A model generated the notes under the pieces. It did not search any database, was not told the DNA's origin, and saw only the letters and a program-made list of their open reading frames with translations. Shown here piece after piece: positions 44,964 to 58,824 of a stretch of DNA of 64,000 bases. Source of the stretch: Succiniclasticum ruminis DSM 9236 (GTDB lineage Bacteria; Bacillota; Negativicutes; Acidaminococcales; Acidaminococcaceae); the NCBI RefSeq assembly GCF_900112895.1, contig NZ_FONL01000002.1, positions 62,001-126,000 of the forward strand, in the 5' to 3' direction. Position numbers and translations under genes: made by a program. Each line of letters begins with the position of its first letter. Position 1 is the stretch's first letter.

Positions 44964-45370
44964 AAAAAACACCACCTTTTTTAAAATAATTAGGCGAAAA
45001 GGGCAGGGCCGGCGCTTAATCCCGGGAACCAGCTAACTGCTGTATTGTTTCAGAAACGTTCGAAAAACCGGCTTATGGGATGAACCGCTATTCGCCACAA
45101 TTCGAAACACTTTTCTTTTTGCCTGTTTCCAGTATAAGGGCAGAAAAATTTTAATTCATGAAATGGAGATACTTAAAAAAACTGCCGCATAATTCCAATG
45201 GTGGAGGTTTTTGGCAACGACGAGCTATTTTCAAGTGTTCCCGGTTGCTGTAAAATTAGTATGACAGTGAAATTAAAAAAGCCTGCACTATCTATGCAGG
45301 CAGGTAACGATGTAATAATTTGCTGTTTAATATCTTTTGCTGCCGATTGGGGCAGGGAAACGGAGTGCTT
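44964..45370. promoter_or_regulatory. Divergent intergenic region: promoter of the 888-aa gene, hairpin, possible origin
   Basis: On the + strand TTTTCA (45228-45233), 17 bases, TAAAAT (45251-45256) is a good promoter for the orphan gene. GCCTGCA (45281-45287) and TGCAGGC (45295-45301) form a hairpin that has its T-run on the - strand, so it would stop - strand transcripts entering the helicase operon. TTCGAA-containing short inverted sequences near 45055-45110 are possible origin or operator sites; this last point is weak. Confidence 0.5.
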
Positions 45371-48037
45371 ATGAGAAATATGTTCGGCTACGGAACAGAC
45401 AAAATCAAAACGGAATTAAAGGCGGGGAACAGGACCAAAGCAAAAATGATTTTAAAGCAGGTTATCCGTAATTTCCCGTTAATCAAAAAATCTTTGGGAA
45501 TTAATAATGAAATAGAGGATTTGGAACTGTTTGCCAAGAAGATTTCCGGCATGGATTCAAAAGCTTTGCTTGAGATGGCTGTAAAAGCGTGTGAGCCGTA
45601 TCTTGTGCCTGAAGATTCCATAGTTAAATTTTTTTATCCGCCTGAAAAACAGAAGGATTTTCTTAAAATTAAACACTTGAACCGCAGGTTTATTGTTGAT
45701 GAATCAATTGCTGAATTATTAACTGAGTGGGATGAAAAAGACAGGTGTTTTTATTTTTATCCCGGAAATTATTGTCCTGATGACGAATTTAAGCAATCGG
45801 TCCGCATCTGGCTCTTAATGTCGGCACTGTATTCTGGTTCGCTTAAAATTGGCGAATCCTTTGAAAACATCATGCGGCCTTTAAATCTCGATGATGACAC
45901 CTGCAAAAGGATTAAAGAGTATTTCCATAGCAAATACTATAATAATAAAGGAAAACTTGCTAAAAAGAGCGCGAATTTTTTTTATAACGGCCAAACGGCT
46001 TTCGTTGACTCCTTTTATGATATAATGGTCGCCAACGGTTTTTTAAATCCCGGATTGAAGGCGAATGGCACTATAGTTTCAAGAAACACAAAGAATGAAC
46101 AACAAAAATACTCAGACAGGCTTCCAGATAACGTCACCCCCTCATTTTCATGGAATAGTGCAAGAACGAAATGTGCTATCGGTTACGATTACTGCGGTCT
46201 GGATTTTCAACTCATTACTCAATACCTGATAGAAAGGAAAACCGCATCCAATTTCGCCCAGCATAAACAGGAACTGTGCGTATTTTCGGAAGACCTTGGC
46301 AAATTCTTCCCTGTAATAGACAAAGAGCTGCCAGAAAGTTTGCAACGTGCACTGGCGTTATATCCCTTATCACATTTAAGAACAAAATTATTGGAGCCCT
46401 TGATAAATATTAACAATTCTTCCCGTTGTTCTGCTCCTTCAAGGGAAGAATGGGATAAACTGGCCGATGTACTGAATTATCAGACGACAGTCTACTTCCC
46501 TCTGTCAGATACGCTTTTTCACTTGTTTTTAAAGCTTAGATACAGAAACTTTGGAGAACGTAATGTGTTAACGGATCAGCTTAGAAATCTGTACGAAACA
46601 TTAATTTTCCAGAAAAACAACAAAAATGTCGTCAGGGTAGCCTATGGTGAGGTTCAGACAGTTAAACTGGAAATCAAGTTGACCGACGGATCGGTTTTCG
46701 CGGTTGCTTTGAACAGAAGAATTCCGGAGCGTGACGACATAAGAACTGAGGACAATTTACTCAATCCTGTAGTTGTTACAAATGGCGGAACTCGTAGTTT
46801 CGCTTCATGTCTTGAAGACGCCTTTGGAAAGGATTGCGGTATAATAAAAGAAATTCCCGAACAGATCTTTGCGGATTATATTAAAGCTGTGTTCGGAAAA
46901 TGTGACGGATTCATCTATGATTCATCATTTGAGAGTGTTTGCGCTACCTGCAGAGAGGAGATCTTTAAAGATTTTAAAAATATCAATAGAATCAGCAGCC
47001 ATTGTTTTGAGAAATTTATTTATAATATCTGCGATCATTTCCAAAAGTACGAATATGAGTACCTGTTTCACTATAATATGGAGACGGGGTTTACCCCGAT
47101 CTTTGGGCTTCAAAGAAAAAAACTGTACGGTATTACTGCTGACGAACTGGAAAGAGAATTGGGATGTATATTTGCTAGATTCCAGACCGATTTTTTTGTC
47201 TTTGATGAAAAATCCAGAAATTACAAAGAATATGCAAAAATGATTGCAAACGCAAAACGGACGCTGAAAACCATCAAGTCTTTGATCGACAGAAACTGGC
47301 AACAGTTATACAGACTGTGCTCGTATTTAAAGGATTTAGCTAAAATTAAGGACTATCATTTACCGGTGGAATCAATAACCGAAAAAACAGTTTACTCAGC
47401 AATAAGGGATATGGAATTTAATACGGATCAAAATTACTATGATACTATAATTAAAACAACAGAAAATATTACAAAAATGATAAATGAATTTGATTCATAC
47501 CCTAATAACGATAAGTACCGTGACAGTCTCAAAGATTACAAAAGCACATTAGAGAAAAATGATTATAAATTTGACCTCAAAGCAAGTATTCTTTCCAGCT
47601 TTGACAAAGTTATGGATTTTCTGTCTGATAATGATGAAGATAGTTCCAATGAGAGACACAACATCAGGTTATCTCTCGACAGCATGAAAACGCAATATCA
47701 GGAAATCCGTAAAATCTTCAAAGATAGCATGAATTTTGACATTTCCAATCTTAGCGCCGGAAGGCAGCAATTTTATGCAGAAATGAGCAACCTTTTACAG
47801 AACTATGAAGGCAACAAAAAAGATATTGTAAACAAATTTATGATTTTCAACACACATGATCCTGTACAGTTAACCAAAGCCATTGATTATTACAACCATC
47901 TAAATTCCAAGGTTTTAAAGTCCCTGCATGATTTTAACAGTGTAATCAGTAATCTGGAAAACAATCCCAAAATGGCTAAAGACTACCGGCAGCAAGATAA
48001 CTATATAGAGTATTTGTCTCAGTTTCGCAACCTTTGA
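45371..48037 (+). CDS. Large orphan protein, 888 aa, unknown function
   Basis: I do not recognise this protein. The ATG at 45371 follows GGAG; an upstream ATG at 45320 is less good. Base composition is clearly more AT-rich than the neighbouring operon, pointing to separate acquisition. There is no signal peptide, membrane segment, Walker motif or nuclease motif that I can identify. The N-terminal part (1-100) is helical and basic. A middle part is rich in aromatic residues (WNSARTKCAIGYDYCGLDFQ, about 260-280), and an interval at about 420-480 is strand-rich (VVRVAYGEVQTVKLEIKLTD). The final 280 residues are long helices likely to be coiled coil. A CxxC pair occurs at about 522-525 (VCATCREE). 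It has its own promoter and terminator, like cargo or defence genes. Confidence 0.8.
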   Translation: MRNMFGYGTDKIKTELKAGNRTKAKMILKQVIRNFPLIKKSLGINNEIEDLELFAKKISGMDSKALLEMAVKACEPYLVPEDSIVKFFYPPEKQKDFLKIKHLNRRFIVDESIAELLTEWDEKDRCFYFYPGNYCPDDEFKQSVRIWLLMSALYSGSLKIGESFENIMRPLNLDDDTCKRIKEYFHSKYYNNKGKLAKKSANFFYNGQTAFVDSFYDIMVANGFLNPGLKANGTIVSRNTKNEQQKYSDRLPDNVTPSFSWNSARTKCAIGYDYCGLDFQLITQYLIERKTASNFAQHKQELCVFSEDLGKFFPVIDKELPESLQRALALYPLSHLRTKLLEPLININNSSRCSAPSREEWDKLADVLNYQTTVYFPLSDTLFHLFLKLRYRNFGERNVLTDQLRNLYETLIFQKNNKNVVRVAYGEVQTVKLEIKLTDGSVFAVALNRRIPERDDIRTEDNLLNPVVVTNGGTRSFASCLEDAFGKDCGIIKEIPEQIFADYIKAVFGKCDGFIYDSSFESVCATCREEIFKDFKNINRISSHCFEKFIYNICDHFQKYEYEYLFHYNMETGFTPIFGLQRKKLYGITADELERELGCIFARFQTDFFVFDEKSRNYKEYAKMIANAKRTLKTIKSLIDRNWQQLYRLCSYLKDLAKIKDYHLPVESITEKTVYSAIRDMEFNTDQNYYDTIIKTTENITKMINEFDSYPNNDKYRDSLKDYKSTLEKNDYKFDLKASILSSFDKVMDFLSDNDEDSSNERHNIRLSLDSMKTQYQEIRKIFKDSMNFDISNLSAGRQQFYAEMSNLLQNYEGNKKDIVNKFMIFNTHDPVQLTKAIDYYNHLNSKVLKSLHDFNSVISNLENNPKMAKDYRQQDNYIEYLSQFRNL

Positions 48038-53986: not shown

Positions 53987-54895
53987 ATGAGAAATTATCT
54001 GCCGAAGGATTATGATTTATCTGATGAGGAATGGGATGAAAAGTACCTCAGAGGCTGTAAGGAAATAAGAGGATCCATTGATCAAAAGCCACATTTCATT
54101 ACGAGAAGTGGGAAAGAAGTGGTAGTTGATACTACGGAAAGATTTGAATTATGCTTTGGCGGTATTGGACTTTGCCCATATAACGCCAAGTGGTTAAGTC
54201 CCCCTTGGCCAGATACCGGCCTGTATGAGTCATATGCCATAGATGCCGGTACGTGGGGCTTTATAGACACCGAAGGGAATGTGGTAATTGAGCCGCAATA
54301 TGTGTACGTAATAGGCCCTTGTGGTTATTATTGCAAAGAAGATTATTATGTGGTGGCAAAAATGATTGACGGGAAAGCCCGTTGGGGCGTGCTGGATCAT
54401 ACTGGCACAGAAGTAATTCCCTGTCAATACACAGCTATTCAGGATACTAAGTATGACGTAGTGATCTTTCAGGAAGAAGAAAAAGGCTTATACGGCCTGA
54501 TGTACATTGATGGGACTATCATAGCTAAACCAAAGTTTGCGCACATTGATACTTGGGATGTTGATATGCACAAAAAGGTACTGGCAGCAGGAACTGATAT
54601 ATATTTTGACGGTGTGTATTCGTTAGAAAAAGACTGTTTTATTGTGCCGTGCAGGTTTGCCCATATTTGGTTTATGGATGAATATATAGAAGCAGATTAT
54701 CCCATACAATCCGATTATGAAGATTTTGCTGACGATATTGATTATACAGAGTATCTTGTTATCCTTAGAAAAAATAATATTGAATTTGGAGGGACAGAAT
54801 ACTTTGATTATGCAGGCAACCTCTTGGATAAAATGGAAGTCAGGAGAAGGGAATACCATAAACAGATTGGTATAAGTAAAGAACCGCGTAAATAA
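53987..54895 (+). CDS. WG-repeat protein
   Basis: 302 aa from the ATG at 53987 after AAAGGGGA; the upstream ATG lacks a site. WG (KWG) repeats at about 75-105 (GTWGFIDTEGNVVIEPQYVY), 125-150 (ARWGVLDHTGTEVIPCQYTA) and 165-185 (GLYGLMYIDGTIIAKPKFAH). These beta repeats occur in many proteins of gut bacteria, mostly uncharacterised. The rest is acidic. No signal peptide is seen. Confidence 0.85.
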   Translation: MRNYLPKDYDLSDEEWDEKYLRGCKEIRGSIDQKPHFITRSGKEVVVDTTERFELCFGGIGLCPYNAKWLSPPWPDTGLYESYAIDAGTWGFIDTEGNVVIEPQYVYVIGPCGYYCKEDYYVVAKMIDGKARWGVLDHTGTEVIPCQYTAIQDTKYDVVIFQEEEKGLYGLMYIDGTIIAKPKFAHIDTWDVDMHKKVLAAGTDIYFDGVYSLEKDCFIVPCRFAHIWFMDEYIEADYPIQSDYEDFADDIDYTEYLVILRKNNIEFGGTEYFDYAGNLLDKMEVRRREYHKQIGISKEPRK

Positions 54896-54951
54896 ACCGT
54901 TATGCGGTATGAGGGGTGTAAATATCCGGTCAGGCCCTCCCAATACAGTAT

Positions 54952-55322
54952 TTGACATTCTATTTAATATCTGATAGTCTAGTTGTGGAAGCCTTACCGG
55001 CTGCCAATGACAGGGCATTTTTGCTGTGTCCAAGGCGCTGGCAAGGCCTCTTCTAAAAACCTCTCATGGTTACACCTTCGGGATATTGGTTCCCGACGCG
55101 CTGGATTCATGCAGAGGTTTAATAAAAGATCTGCCTGAGCCTAGGGTCGACGTCCATCTGGATAGTGCCGTTAGGCGTGCCAGTACCCTTAGTGATGCTG
55201 GTTAGATTATGATCAACATTTGTTGTATCAGCAACCCGGCCAGTGCTTTTTCAAGAAGCGAAGCCTCGCATATGTGTAGTATCTTTCGATATTGTGCCTG
55301 TGATATGGGTCGTTTCTTTTTA
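54952..55322 (+). ncRNA. Putative noncoding RNA 1 with promoter (array start)
   Basis: Promoter TTGACA (54952-54957), 17 bases, TAGTCT (54975-54980). Just after the start, GCCTTACCGGC pairs with GCTGGCAAGGC (about 54991-55047) in a long stem. Then comes unit C copy 1: AACCTCT (55058-55064) paired with AGAGGTT (55113-55119). The transcript could end there or run to a second hairpin, AAGAAGCGA/TCGTTTCTT (about 55253-55318), which has a T-run. No open frame of note. Confidence 0.6.
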
Positions 55323-55324
55323 AT

Positions 55325-55556
55325 TTGACAAATTATTTTAAGATTGGTATAGTTTTAATAGGGTGACCAACCGAAACTGGATCAGTACTTGTTACTGGTG
55401 AAAGCCTTTTGGCGCCCTGTATAAAAGGTGCTTGATCCTTTACGCCCGGGTCAATAACCCGGAAACGACCGGGAGAAGTACCTAAAAAAGCCCTTCACGC
55501 CTCCCCCTAATTGCCAATTAGGTACGGACCGCTGTGAAGGGCTTTTATTTTTTTGA
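55325..55556 (+). ncRNA. Putative noncoding RNA 2 (unit A) with promoter and terminator
   Basis: Promoter TTGACA (55325-55330), 17 bases, TATAGT (55348-55353). Unit A follows: outer GGGTG (55361-55365)/CGCCC (55413-55417), hairpin CAGTA-CTTGT-TACTG (55383-55397), and GCC-TTTT-GGC. Downstream is a CCCGGGT/ACCCGG pair (about 55445-55462). The end is a strong terminator, AAAAGCCCTTCAC...GTGAAGGGCTTTT (about 55486-55545), with an inner CCTAATT/AATTAGG hairpin and seven T. Confidence 0.65.
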
Positions 55557-55591
55557 TTATACGATACGGCGAAAATGGAGAATCGTATAAC
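55556..55591. repeat. Spacer motif between RNA units, inverted repeat here
   Basis: TTATACGAT and ATCGTATAA flank GCGAAAATGGAGA. Variants of AAAATGGAG followed by TCGTATAAC recur near 55820-55840 and, in part, near 56580-56650 and 56825. It is always between RNA units, never inside one. It may be an operator or a recombination remnant. Confidence 0.5.
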
Positions 55592-55599
55592 TCTGCGAA

Positions 55600-55800
55600 T
55601 TTGTATTGCTATTAATATCTTTTTGTGATAATATTTGATTGCCGGAAGGGTTGAGCTTGGCATTGAGCGTTGATACCCAATTTTCGGACGAGGGGCGCGA
55701 ATGCCTGGACTGTCCCTCCCAAATATTTAGAAAAACTTCTCTTGGTGATCCCCCCAGCGATTGCTGCTGGGTTGGCTTGATCCATGCAGAAGTTTTTTTG
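55600..55800 (+). ncRNA. Putative noncoding RNA 3 (unit C copy 2)
   Basis: A possible promoter has GATAAT (55626-55631) with a weak -35. The RNA has a G-rich/C-rich pairing GAGGGGC/GTCCCTC-like region (about 55690-55719), then unit C copy 2: AACTTCT (55734-55740) with AGAAGTT (55788-55794) and seven T, enclosing CCCAGC/GCTGGG. An open frame at 55639-55839 has no homology and no ribosome site. Confidence 0.5.
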
Positions 55801-55925
55801 TTTGTAAAAGCGGACGGTGAAAAATGGAGTTTCGTATAACCGAAAAATTCACGTTTATCTCACTAAACAAATAATCGGAATCGCTAAAACGCGTTCTGGC
55901 AATCAGTTTTGTCAGAATGTTTTTT

Positions 55926-56030
55926 TTGACAAATTTTAAAGGATCGTTTTATACTGTCTATAGAGCGACCAACCGAAACTGGGTCAGCACTTGTTGCTGG
56001 CGAAAGCCTTTTGGCGCTCCTTTCGTTATT
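55926..56030 (+). ncRNA. Putative noncoding RNA 4 (unit B) with promoter
   Basis: Promoter TTGACA (55926-55931), 18 bases, TATACT (55950-55955), similar in sequence to the RNA 2 promoter. Unit B: outer GAGCG (55963-55967)/CGCTC (56015-56019), hairpin CAGCA-CTTGT-TGCTG (55985-55999), GCC-TTTT-GGC. The core GACCAACCGAAACTGG is identical to unit A, while both stems have changed in a paired way. A weak T-rich end (CTTTCGTTATT) runs into the next promoter. Confidence 0.65.
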
Positions 56031-56259
56031 GACACCAATTTATCCATTATCTTATAATATCTGTAGAAGTTGGCGTACCCTGTGCGGATCTTATTTATCT
56101 GGGGTCTGAAGGGCGGTCGCTTCTAAGAATCGGTAGAGGCCGAGGACCGTTTTACGGCAGACCTTGGTAAGATACCTGCCGGTTTTTGTTTAGAACTTCT
56201 CTTGGTGATTCCCTTCAGCGATTGCTGCTGGACTGGCTTGACCCATGCAGAAGTTTTAA
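56029..56259 (+). ncRNA. Putative noncoding RNA 5 (unit C copy 3) with promoter
   Basis: Promoter TTGACA (56029-56034), 18 bases, TATAAT (56053-56058). The RNA contains AATCGGTAG (about 56128-56136), which can pair with CTGCCGGTT (56176-56184) with two wobbles, then T5, a first terminator. About ten bases on lies unit C copy 3: AACTTCT (56194-56200) with AGAAGTT (56249-56255), TTTT. Confidence 0.62.
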
Positions 56260-56344
56260 ATAGAGCGTTCCCTCATGAATCCGTCAGACGTTCTGCGTTA
56301 GGTGGTCATGATATGGGACTACTCTTAAATAGCATTATCTTTGC

Positions 56345-56557
56345 GAACGAGCGAATCTCCTCTGGTTCCGGCTTCAATGCCAGTGGGAGTGAAAAACGCA
56401 CCGTCGCCGGAGGCGGGGGTTGGGGTTCCGTTCCCACCAAAGGATATTGCTATAACATCACCATCGGCAGGCAGGCTGTTATCGCCGTTGGTGATGTAAA
56501 ACTCTTCACGGCAGTACCTGATTTGGGTTCAGGCCCACGAGCCGTGAAGAGTTTTTA
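56345..56557 (+). ncRNA. Putative noncoding RNA 6 with strong terminator
   Basis: No clear promoter, so it may be read through from RNA 5. Stems: TCTCC...GGGAG near 56357-56389, ACATCACCA with TGGTGATGT (about 56455-56497). The terminator AACTCTTCACGGC (56500-56512) pairs with GCCGTGAAGAGTT (56541-56553) over 13 bp and has the same nested design (inner CCTGA/TCAGG) as the RNA 2 terminator. Confidence 0.55.
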
Positions 56558-56649
56558 TTATATTGGAACTTAAGCCGTCGATGAGAAAAATGGTATTTTA
56601 TCGCCGATTTTGTCATAATAGAAAAAACGGTTTAGAGTATCGTATAACA

Positions 56650-56766
56650 TTGACAGGTTGCAAGATCATAATTATAATTGATTTAGCAAGAGCTGACCTT
56701 CGCGGATTGCTGTTAGGTGTTTCATCTGTTCGGCCCCGCGTCTTGAAAGAGGACAGCTCTTTTTTG
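56650..56766 (+). ncRNA. Putative noncoding RNA 7 with promoter and terminator
   Basis: Promoter TTGACA (56650-56655), 17 bases, TATAAT (56673-56678), the best of the array. The roughly 80-base RNA is a single domain: AAGAGCTG (56688-56695) pairs with CAGCTCTT (56754-56761) plus six T, enclosing CGCGG (56701-56705)/CCGCG. Confidence 0.7.
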
Positions 56767-57001
56767 TGTGTGGATGACTTATTCCGTGTAACTATCATGC
56801 AGATGCCTTTTGGTATGCGATAAGGAGAAAATGGAAGTGTACAACCACATAATTCAATTCCTACACAAAACCTGCATGAACTCTTATGTGGCGCAGAATT
56901 TGCTTGACAGTCAAAGTTGTCAAAAATTAGCAATTTTTTATTTTGTAAAACCGGCGATGGTATTTCATCTGCTTTAAAACAAGGTTAATGTGTACAAGTA
57001 C

Positions 57002-57119
57002 TTGCATTTGACAGAATTAGTGCTATAATTAGCACTGTTGCAAAGGAAGTTGTCGGCAGATTTCAGAATCAACGTCAAGAAGCATGGCCCGGGGAACTGC
57101 GTTGCCCGGGCTGTTTTTT
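57002..57119 (+). promoter_or_regulatory. Promoter, operator and terminator leader before the sigma/XRE gene
   Basis: TTGCAT (57002-57007), 16 bases, TATAAT (57024-57029). The palindrome AGTGCTA-TAAT-TAGCACT (57019-57036) overlaps the -10 box, a good repressor site. About 50 bases on, GCCCGGG (57087-57093) pairs with CCCGGGC (57105-57111), followed by TGTTTTTT. So transcripts either end as a short RNA or read through into the gene. Upstream (about 56910-56930) TTGACA/TGTCAA form another inverted repeat. Nothing else is seen in 56767-57001. Confidence 0.7.
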
Positions 57120-57177
57120 GCTGTTCTGCCGATCAACGCAAGCACAATATAGCAGGAGAGTTGTTTTTTACAAGGGT

Positions 57178-58824
57178 ATGAAACGGGATAACAGGGCGAC
57201 AGCATTAAAAAAGCTGGAGAATATCGCCAAAAAAGAAAAAGATCTGTGGTATCGGCGGATCTGTGATTACGCACTGGCGTACCGTCTGACTGTCGACGAC
57301 AGGATCTGGCTCTACAATAAACTGAAAGCAAAAGGCGTCACAATCCTGGGAATGGATCCCACAGCAGAACCGGAGCCCAGACGGAAGTCATGGTATGATG
57401 AAGATGGCACGGAATACTTTGATTTCGCCCATAAAGACTATGAGGCTGTATACGATGAGATAATAAAGAACTGTAATGCACTCAGGCCGTTGGTGGATAA
57501 AGTCAGAACCATAAAACCGCCGCAACGGTATGAACTGGAACATCTCAGCAAAAAGATCATCAAAGGGGATGACGGTGCGCGTGAACGGCTGACAGAAATG
57601 TACCTGCGCACAGCCCTGGCTTTCGGCCTCAGATGGTCGAAGCTGCTGGATGTGAACCTGCAGGAAGCAGTAGGGGATGCGCTTGAAGGTCTTGTAAGGG
57701 CTGTCAACAGTTATTCACCGGAAAACGGGAACATGTTTTCCATGTATCTTTTTGGCTGGATGCGTCATACAACGGCGAAAGGACAAACGACACATGACCC
57801 GCAGGTCTCGATCAGGAAAGACAGAAGATTCCACTTTGTCAGTGCCTATTGCGTATTGAAGAAGTGGGGCTGTACGGGGTGCGACAGGCTGCCGGATTGC
57901 AATGAGGCAGTACAAAAGGTTGCAGAAAGGCTGAACTGGGAGCCGGAAGACGCCCGGGCAGCAATACGGGCCTCACTGGAACCGCTGTCGCTGGAAGCCT
58001 TCCTTGAAACCGCGGAACACACGGCTAGCGAAGGCTTTTCTGAAGAAATCCAGGAAGAAGAGGATGACGCCCCGGATTACGAGGAGGAACTGTCAGGCTA
58101 TTGCACCGATACGGCAGAAGAAGCGGAAACAGGCCTGACCGACTGGCTGCTGCAGAAAAAACTGCAGGAGCAGATGGACCGGCTGACCCCCAGGGAAAAG
58201 AAAGTACTGGAGTATCGCAACGGGATCGGATGCGGTCGGCCTTACACGCTGGAAGAGATCGGATGTATGTATGGCGTATCAAGAACGAGAATACAACAGG
58301 TCGAAACCATGGCGAAGGAGAAGCTGCGGGCCAGAAGCAAAGTTCTGAAAGACTACCTTCCGGACAAACAGTCAGGCCAGGATAAACAAATGATGCAGAA
58401 GAGACCGCAGGCCAGTGGAACAAAGCCGAAAACGAAACCATCAAATAAAAAGGTAAGGAGAACTGTCATGAAGCTGTCAGAATTACTTGTATGCTACAGA
58501 AAGGAACATAATCTGGACAGGAGGGAGATGGCGGAACTGTGCGAGATATCGGAAGCCACACTTTCACACCTTGAGGAACCGGGCAACGTGAAATGTCCCG
58601 CTTCCAGGATACTGTTAAAACTCTTCAGAAACATGGAAATAACCGAGGATGTTTTTATGGACGTCATAAAGCACGACAGCCTGTTCCACGGACTGGACAT
58701 CGCCTGGATGTGGGAGGACAGAAACGAGGAAAGGCTGCTGAAGTATTATCATCAGATGAACAAGCAGGGAAAGGAACTCGCACTGGCTCAGGTACAGGTA
58801 CTTGCCGAATCAAGGAATTTCTAG
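57178..58824 (+). CDS. Sigma-70-like protein fused to a C-terminal XRE domain
   Basis: 548 aa from ATG 57178; the ribosome site is poor (GGAGAG 20 bases away, or AAGGG too close). Residues about 122-203 resemble sigma region 2 (NLQEAVGDALEGLVRAVNSY, then MFSMYLFGWMRHTTAKG). A cysteine group CVLKKWGCTGCDRLPDC (about 227-243) is an unusual insert, possibly metal-binding. Region 4 is clear at about 330-385: LTPREKKVLEYRNG, then YTLEEIGCMYGVSRTRIQQV. From about 431, MKLSELLVCYRKEHNLDRRE onward is an XRE helix-turn-helix (LCEISEATLSHLEEPG) with a helical tail. It is probably a mobile-element regulator acting on RNA polymerase. Regulation by the palindromic operator upstream is inferred. Confidence 0.8.
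   Translation: MKRDNRATALKKLENIAKKEKDLWYRRICDYALAYRLTVDDRIWLYNKLKAKGVTILGMDPTAEPEPRRKSWYDEDGTEYFDFAHKDYEAVYDEIIKNCNALRPLVDKVRTIKPPQRYELEHLSKKIIKGDDGARERLTEMYLRTALAFGLRWSKLLDVNLQEAVGDALEGLVRAVNSYSPENGNMFSMYLFGWMRHTTAKGQTTHDPQVSIRKDRRFHFVSAYCVLKKWGCTGCDRLPDCNEAVQKVAERLNWEPEDARAAIRASLEPLSLEAFLETAEHTASEGFSEEIQEEEDDAPDYEEELSGYCTDTAEEAETGLTDWLLQKKLQEQMDRLTPREKKVLEYRNGIGCGRPYTLEEIGCMYGVSRTRIQQVETMAKEKLRARSKVLKDYLPDKQSGQDKQMMQKRPQASGTKPKTKPSNKKVRRTVMKLSELLVCYRKEHNLDRREMAELCEISEATLSHLEEPGNVKCPASRILLKLFRNMEITEDVFMDVIKHDSLFHGLDIAWMWEDRNEERLLKYYHQMNKQGKELALAQVQVLAESRNF
58468..58824 (+). other. Possible internal start giving the XRE domain alone
   Basis: An in-frame ATG at 58468 is preceded by GGTAAGGAG at seven bases, a better site than that of the full gene. 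It would give a 118-aa free XRE protein. Either two products are made, or a once separate gene has been fused by loss of a stop. Confidence 0.5.

Follow-up and report, generated by a model that had tools for sequence, protein, structure and literature searches.

The 64,000-nucleotide stretch of the Succiniclasticum ruminis DSM 9236 genome analyzed here (the window; family Acidaminococcaceae, class Negativicutes) contains an array of small structured RNA modules spanning approximately 2.2 kb. Sequence comparison supports well the assignment of modules B, E and T of the array, and of a further module, J, to a class of antisense RNA genes that lie in phage polyvalent-protein genes, directly behind the LPD3 domain (PF18798). 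We tentatively favor the explanation that the array consists of orphan copies of these LPD3-linked RNAs, which would most likely serve as trans-acting RNA antidotes against LPD3 domains injected by phages.

The array lies between a WG-repeat gene that ends at 54895 and a sigma-like gene that starts at 57178, and it holds no credible gene. Promoters matching 11-12 of 12 consensus positions occur at 55325, 55926, 56029 and 56650, all on the + strand, with none on the - strand. Among 300 dinucleotide shuffles of the region, such promoters numbered 0.013 on average and one at most, and the rest of the 64 kb window has only three further sites of this quality. A reading of this DNA from its letters alone (the original prediction) had proposed at least four strong promoters; these four stand, while another that it had named, at 54952, does not. 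There the -35 is perfect, yet no good -10 follows at a spacing of 16-18 bp and the promoter scan does not list the site; it is a weak promoter at best. We measured folding stability as z against dinucleotide shuffles for 12 stretches, 11 in the array and one before it. The array stretches range from -1.7 to -6.4: -5.9 (54985-55126), -1.7 (55127-55316), -6.4 (55356-55556; its 5' domain alone, -3.6), -2.1 (55638-55800), -2.1 (55958-56022), -3.8 (56062-56262), -2.0 (56263-56330), -5.6 (56330-56565), -2.2 (56682-56775) and -4.0 (57036-57150). Just ahead of the array, 54893-54950 shows no stable fold (z +0.3).

The original prediction had seen no credible open frame, and we agree. The longest open reading frame with a start codon has 123 amino acids (aa), and stop-to-stop frames reach at most 148 codons. 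With no notable frame, and with the differences between two copies of module A all falling in base pairs, protein coding was ruled out. Open antisense frames had suggested that the array captured adhesin or tail-fibre genes in antisense; a 41-aa peptide from such a frame, searched against the proteins of 14 genomes, matched its own locus only, and this candidate was rejected. Rfam 15 identifies no family in the array at the gathering score and only two low-scoring matches at E values up to 5, so the known ornate RNAs were also rejected. Clustered regularly interspaced short palindromic repeats (CRISPR) are regularly spaced identical direct repeats, and integron cassettes carry attC sites. Repeat analysis revealed no regular spacing of identical direct repeats, and neither identity was retained. 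The promoter scan, the folds and the Rfam search thus agree with the earlier view that structured RNA genes, each driven by its own promoter and of no recognized family, are clustered here among mobile elements.

Modules and units, delimited by eye from folds and repeats, are as follows (window coordinates):

54952-54979, + strand: weak promoter-like site with a perfect -35, TTGACA (sequence)
54985-55057, + strand: RNA 1, 5' stem domain (fold of 54985-55126)
55058-55121, + strand: module H', a divergent third copy of H (repeat families D1/D3)
55253-55316, + strand: module I, divergent copy (likeness to 56261-56324, by eye)
55325-55353, + strand: promoter, 11/12 (promoter scan)
55360-55417, + strand: module A, copy 1 (repeat of 55962-56019, 85% over 68 nt)
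55427-55482, + strand: module B (LPD3 linkers of G007, L048/L163, and of G194, L130/L144, carry antisense homologues)
55486-55546, + strand: module T, copy 1, a terminator hairpin (T-class homologue antisense in the LPD3 linker of G154, L129)
55638-55733, + strand: RNA 3, 5' part (fold of 55638-55800)
55734-55796, + strand: module H, copy 1, with a T-run at its end (repeat analysis)
55926-55955, + strand: promoter, 11/12 (promoter scan)
55962-56019, + strand: module A, copy 2 (repeat analysis)
56029-56058, + strand: promoter, 12/12 (promoter scan)
56062-56127, + strand: RNA 5, 5' stem domain (fold of 56062-56262)
56130-56182, + strand: module E (homologues in G000:C28, with its own promoter, and antisense in a Phascolarctobacterium LPD3 linker, L049/L091/L131)
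56194-56257, + strand: module H, copy 2 (repeat analysis)
56261-56324, + strand: module I (G003:C24, L044, likewise has H followed by I)
56330-56497, + strand: structured stretch (no homologue in own-genome BLAST or further search)
56498-56555, + strand: module T, copy 2, a terminator hairpin (repeat analysis, T-class search)
56650-56678, + strand: promoter, 12/12 (promoter scan)
56682-56765, + strand: U7, a single-hairpin RNA with a T-run (fold of 56682-56775)

The units are composed of closed stem-loop modules of approximately 52-64 nt, some of which share one promoter. Where the original prediction had distinguished two recurring kinds of unit, the recurrence is confirmed but the kinds are more numerous: A, T and I occur twice and H three times, beside single copies of B and E. 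The two A copies differ at seven positions, all inside predicted base pairs; by eye, three pairs are changed on both sides and one U-G has become C-G. When aligned with copies outside the window, module B contains six pairs changed on both sides (0-1 in slid-structure controls) and module T ten pairs and 17 cells (0-2 in controls). Because the changes in A, B and T are compensatory within stems, they point to selection on RNA structure.

Modules also recur elsewhere in this genome. A BLAST search with the array produced 13 matches beyond itself, in seven other contigs, some of them to a transposon end (C24) or a dispersed repeat, R, only. The modules themselves reappear, reshuffled, in at least six other places, on contigs C33, C39, C26 (two places) and C28, with T also on C17; C27 holds a weaker copy of T. 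In three mosaic places B and then T follow a different 5' module, D, and in two of them (C39 and C26) the promoter lies approximately 10-20 nt past the stop codon of an XRE gene. E stands alone with its own promoter on C28, and a long stretch on C26 ends in T. On C26 (L013, near 8400) an ATPase gene, pilus/competence-like by eye, is interrupted after LRSILRQD by a stretch that holds RNA units together with genes of the XRE and DNA methyltransferase-like kinds.

Beyond this genome, G003 has H and I joined in the window's order, together with other stems, behind a single promoter. Altogether, the genus has at least five module-bearing genomes (G000, G003, G006, G012 and G013), and G304, from a different family, carries modules too. 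A covariance model of T matches 7 of 380 genomes: this one, G006, G012, G013, G304 (behind a 10/12 promoter and a different stem), G191 (weakly) and G154, whose copy lies in an LPD3 linker and was a training sequence. A search for LPD3 around seven T places, up to 1.5 kb where the contig allows, found none. Viral contigs scanned with module E yielded one contig, L071, which matches the C28 copy at 98% over 136 nt; scans with B, H and repeat R, and searches of phage and plasmid DNA with the array, returned nothing useful. One match in Chitinophagaceae (L090) has no promoter or hairpin context by eye and was taken as chance.

Antisense RNA units behind LPD3 domains

Two of the modules connect the array to phage genes. 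Module B with its promoter lies antisense in a phage polyvalent-protein gene of G007 (L048), just before the motif SKV(V/L)DENGEP. Module E, again with a promoter, is antisense in a polyvalent-protein gene before the same motif in a Phascolarctobacterium metagenome-assembled genome of the same family (G027, L049; L091, from record JAUNOC010000010.1, is contained without a mismatch in L049). In L049, LPD3 spans aa 145-258 and ART-PolyVal starts at aa 306, and the unit occupies the linker that separates them. In three crAss-like phage polyvalent genes that have no LPD3, SKVVDENGEP is joined straight to WFGDW (two genes) or WFGE (the third). The C28 copy of E still resembles the linker reading frame, with 53% identity over 49 aa and one stop. 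A viral scan with the E-linker protein returned nothing useful.

In its home position, the unit comprises an antisense promoter, approximately 6 nt, one closed hairpin and a T-rich tail, and it sits on the linker just behind a divergent LPD3. Unit sequences differ between loci; the position and the closed-hairpin shape are constant. The 14 domains that make up our profile all match PF18798 at E ≤ 1 (best 7.5e-20). The domain is approximately 110-150 aa long, and most frames that contain it range from several hundred to several thousand aa.

PF18798 matches are present in 25 of 300 genomes of the class Negativicutes. For a first set, we inspected 28 of the 34 matches (four have no locus, and L136 and L138, short and partial, were omitted) and dropped L141 and L143, in which the frame closes behind the domain, leaving 26 loci with an open frame. 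An antisense promoter of at least 10/12 lies within 300 nt around the domain end in 14 of the 26 loci; 300 rounds of synonymous-codon shuffling gave a mean of 2.05 loci and a maximum of 7, and among 176 further 300-nt windows taken from these frames, 7 attain 10/12. Promoters were found at 14 of the 15 divergent LPD3 domains, and the fifteenth, L130, has a 9/12 promoter with a clear hairpin. The 72 nt behind the promoter are more stable than synonymous shuffles in all 15 loci (mean z -3.2) and are followed by T-rich tails. At L129 the top-scoring promoter does not precede the hairpin; a second one (10/12) does.

A second set was drawn from 380 genomes with a profile of the divergent domain that excludes the linker but for a few residues in some rows. 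The profile matches 40 genomes; eight or more weak matches, which either have E values above 1e-6 or lack a locus, lie outside the loci examined. By eye, promoter, hairpin and T-rich tail are present in 12 of 14 loci, or 9 of the 11 new ones (L163, with a 9/12 promoter, was known earlier; L176 repeats L142 and L180 repeats L168). One miss, L181, has stops in the domain and is a pseudogene. Ten loci entered the shuffle analysis: the 11 new ones plus L145, a viral contig found with a linker-containing query, minus L164 and L181, whose frames are closed. Promoters of at least 10/12 occur in nine of these (shuffles, mean 0.28, maximum 3) and of 11/12 in eight (mean 0.02, maximum 1); the mean fold z is again -3.2. 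At L164 (G249:C117) two tandem antisense hairpin units lie near LPD3, each with a promoter by eye, a configuration that may perhaps show how arrays begin.

The linker promoters have a fixed 17-bp spacing. In 19 of the 20 positive loci compared, the -10 shares one codon phase, and in 15 it coincides with AGT-ATA or ACT-ATA; these counts are illustrative, as the loci were chosen beforehand as positive. Read in the sense direction, the T-rich tail becomes an A-rich run just before a stable hairpin, which raises the question of whether the mRNA carries a frameshift or pausing signal between domains. Such a signal would explain neither an antisense promoter of fixed spacing nor the intergenic copies that have a promoter but no frame, and we consider it very improbable.

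Phage records, inspected by eye and without a shuffle control, seemingly contain units behind LPD3 in five of seven cases:

Burkholderia phage BgManors32: promoter 10/12
Ochrobactrum phage POI1126: promoter 10/12
Achromobacter phage CF418P1: promoter 8/12
Helicobacter pametensis prophage: promoter 8/12
Phage WC36-2: -10 alone clear

An Rfam search of 14 LPD3 loci gave six matches, none on the units. A tblastn search of phages and plasmids with the L126 domain and an NCBIfam scan returned nothing useful.

We compared 19 orphan modules with 32 linker units, all cut by eye, for a total of 608 comparisons in which decoys scored at most 30. Six scores exceed this maximum: B with L163 (84) and L130 (47), E with L131 (58), T3, the C39 copy of T, with L129 (45), T2 with L129 (41), and J, an orphan module at C33 and C28 outside the window, with L142 (36). 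B, E and T of the window therefore have LPD3-linked homologues, and with J they are well-supported members of the LPD3-linked antisense RNA class. The traits of that class, namely its own promoter, a closed hairpin and a T-rich tail, were found. For B and T, the linker homologues L130 and L129 come from genomes of another family. A, D, H and I may share this origin, and for these as for K, M, U7 and three G003 modules, membership in the class would follow from their size, shape and company.

The orphan units might instead be neutral remains of decayed prophage genes, with only the copies inside phage genes still of consequence. The linker frame that survives, with one stop, in the C28 copy of E would fit such decay, as would the recombinase or integrase genes, or the cut gene, that adjoin some orphan loci. 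Nevertheless, the orphans keep near-consensus promoters, stand in tandem behind one promoter and have stems that co-vary (A by eye; T), and their modules recur in the genus and in a second family. Together these features make neutral decay quite unlikely.

Candidate functions of the orphan modules

How might such RNAs act? A fixed domain and one RNA shape stand side by side while the sequence changes, and for this reason we suspect a pairing like that of toxin and antidote. The available part of Iyer et al. 2017 (PMC5512222) treats polyvalent proteins as likely to reach the host cell along with phage DNA. By analogy with type III RNA antitoxins and their RNases, the hairpin RNA would bind and block the LPD3 domain; a divergent LPD3 would harm the cell, perhaps as an RNase. 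In the phage, the RNA would shield the lysogen or producing cell from its own LPD3 protein. Units would then have left the phage gene and would now stand alone, or strung behind strong promoters, in recombining regions, where an orphan array would shield an LPD3-less cell from LPD3 proteins injected by phages. Transcription of the array, LPD3 binding, LPD3 toxicity and protection are each steps that we infer. In the S. ruminis genome, a draft in 39 contigs that is 98% complete, two LPD3 profiles gave no match at E ≤ 0.001.

Antisense control of phage genes had been among the roles suggested by the original prediction. Its phage connection is borne out, though in another form, as some of the array RNAs are relatives of antisense RNA genes behind LPD3. 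A cis-acting version of such control would have the RNA block or cut the polyvalent mRNA by pairing, for example to silence a late gene in the lysogen, with orphans regulating related mRNAs in trans. By its position the unit is fully complementary to the host mRNA, and it has its own strong promoter on the opposite strand, as this model predicts. However, pairing with a target does not require stems that co-vary, and sequence varies across loci where position and closed-hairpin shape persist. The hairpin and T-rich tail also lie on the linker, far from most frame starts, and no LPD3 mRNA was found in the S. ruminis genome for the orphans to pair with. We therefore regard cis-antisense regulation as unlikely.

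A different relationship would make the RNA a partner of LPD3, whether cofactor, guide or packaged cargo, that acts jointly with it after injection. The conserved neighborhood of domain and RNA is consistent with a partnership. In addition, the available record of the LPD3-like protein of Pseudomonas phage H66 notes verification by mass spectrometry, so virions may carry the protein. No unit is seen in H66 itself, however, and orphan arrays in a genome where LPD3 was not found make little sense for a pure cofactor, leaving this model improbable. In H66 (L183, NC_042342.1) the LPD3-like domain belongs to an 11.4 kb PLxRFG-type gene of P. aeruginosa phages.

Several observations weigh against the antidote explanation that we favor. 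Ten classic LPD3 domains (LQG motif) and L114 in the first set have no antisense promoter, and five further classic domains examined later have no unit (0/5), so some LPD3 proteins would not need the RNA; the division into classic and divergent domains was itself drawn after the result was known. L179 has no unit although its linker is open for approximately 60 codons, and by eye none is seen in Pseudomonas phage H66 or Microcystis phage Mwe-JY07. The loci are related by descent, and the shuffles are uncorrected for kinship. Among the 32 linker units, a small sample, none scores above decoys with A, D, H, I, K, M, U7 or three G003 modules. Sequence search found no LPD3 relative in the PDB, and structure predictions for LPD3 are of poor quality, with no solved fold matching the better of them. 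Because the genome is a draft, an LPD3 gene could be missing from the assembly. Finally, the orphans could be nothing more than remnants that lost prophages left behind.

The surroundings of the array

Four further features lie within or beside the array:

55558-55592, no strand: dispersed repeat R, in which an inverted repeat, TATACGATAC...GTATCGTATA, encloses a conserved loop, GGCGAAAATGGA
55885-55937, + strand: left end (hairpin) of a serine-recombinase transposon (91% match to the full element, G007:C135)
56833-56969, + strand: right end of the serine-recombinase transposon (83-87% to two copies in G007:C135, 86% to G013:C52)
57036-57150, + strand: structured leader of the sigma-like gene, outside the module system (fold; conserved in G012)

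The two transposon segments, previously counted as parts of the array, are the ends of a serine-recombinase element of approximately 1.4 kb that is whole in G007. Between the two ends, the window has RNA units where the whole element has its recombinase. Whole copies occupy approximately 570-1990 and 9860-11310 of L041 (G007:C135), and their left end is a terminator-like hairpin.

The array itself looks like an insertion. In G012 a gene ending in EAYMEME is followed by 233 nt and then the sigma-like gene, with no array between, and in G010 a gene with the same ending is followed by a transposon end whose flank is shared with the window. From these two arrangements, we conclude that the adjacency of the sigma-like gene is incidental. 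Across 14 genomes of the genus, the sigma-like protein has a single close relative, in G012 (73% identical); the other 13 matches are approximately 30% identical. As the G012 relative has no array upstream, regulation of the array by the sigma-like gene was rejected. The link to a sigma-like/XRE regulator made in the original prediction is incidental, and the interpretation given there is, as a whole, partly supported. A contig scan of genomes with the sigma-like protein returned nothing useful. In the leader of the gene (57036-57150), which is conserved in G012, a palindrome covers the -10, and a long outer stem is combined with a terminator-like hairpin inside; the leader resembles an attenuator.

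Of 14 genomes of the genus, seven carry repeat R, in a total of 19 copies; this genome alone accounts for 11. It is sometimes found on one or both sides of RNA units and also precedes small peptide genes. Integron-like cassettes with R as the recombination site were considered and rejected: R is dispersed and also stands before peptide genes, and by eye the attC core order is absent. L011, L015, L016, L053 and L055 contain many peptide genes, several adjoining R, with a common leader ending in GG that we take to resemble Nif11-type leaders. A repeated intergenic hairpin, GCCGTRGATTTTTCTGCGGC followed by TTTTGTTATAAT, occurs in L011, L014, L018, L041, L050 and L052 and may be a terminator with a built-in -10 box. 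Pfam has no family for four of the ten genes neighboring the array. Elsewhere in the window, 45320-48037 is a 905-aa frame of low GC content with no Pfam match.

Known systems and significance

The LPD3-linked units share features with several known systems. In type III toxin-antitoxin systems, RNA repeats lie upstream of the toxin gene and are co-transcribed with it, and the toxin is an endoRNase of the ToxN fold. Common to these systems (ToxIN, CptIN and TenpIN) and to the units are a small structured RNA, a proposed block of the protein through the RNA fold, tandem units and a tie to phage conflict. ToxI RNA blocks ToxN by its fold, according to the available part of PMC5772629. Here, by contrast, the RNA is antisense, lies behind the domain and has its own promoter, with no co-transcribed repeats upstream; the units are single hairpins of differing sequence, and its protein counterpart is one domain within a large phage protein.

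Type I systems pair a short hydrophobic toxin peptide with a cis-antisense RNA antitoxin. As in those systems, an RNA gene with its own promoter and terminator lies opposite a protein gene, and complementarity to the mRNA holds for units inside phage genes, though not for orphan copies. LPD3, however, differs from a short hydrophobic peptide, and the linker covered by the RNA sits within the gene or at its 3' end; the RNA structure co-varies, and orphan copies have no target that we found. Polymorphic toxin systems include arrays of orphan immunity genes that encode protein antidotes without toxins. The array resembles these as a collection of toxin-less antidotes shuffled between strains, with the difference that the antidotes here would be RNAs. 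The ornate RNAs, including ROOL, GOLLD and OLE, are large multi-domain RNAs of bacteria and phages; the array differs from them in its short, independent modules, which also occur alone, and in having no Rfam match.

A literature search of titles and abstracts, with most subscription papers and bioRxiv outside its scope, found no report of LPD3-linked antisense RNAs. In the available main text of Iyer et al. 2017 (PMC5512222) the word "antisense" is absent and LPD3 appears once as a whole word, with no RNA partner, and the accessible part of PMC8770471 names LPD3 merely as a neighbor of DUF2213. To our knowledge, the arrangement of the class fits no known type of RNA gene or toxin-antitoxin system. 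The function of the RNA could yet bring the class near type III.

LPD3, a domain of no known function, thereby gains an opposite-strand RNA gene that is invisible to standard annotation and is a testable partner. The LPD3-linked origin also offers a simple account of RNA clusters that have no Rfam match. A broader proposal, possible but doubtful, is that bacteria collect the antisense RNA antidotes of divergent LPD3 domains into promoter-driven arrays and so possess an inheritable, RNA-only immunity library directed at LPD3 effectors of incoming phages. If the antidote explanation is true, bacteria may assemble collections of immunity factors made of RNA alone to counter phage effectors, for which we know of no precedent. 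Even if the RNAs are not antidotes, a conserved antisense RNA gene tied to one domain across several Negativicutes families is unusual and easily tested.

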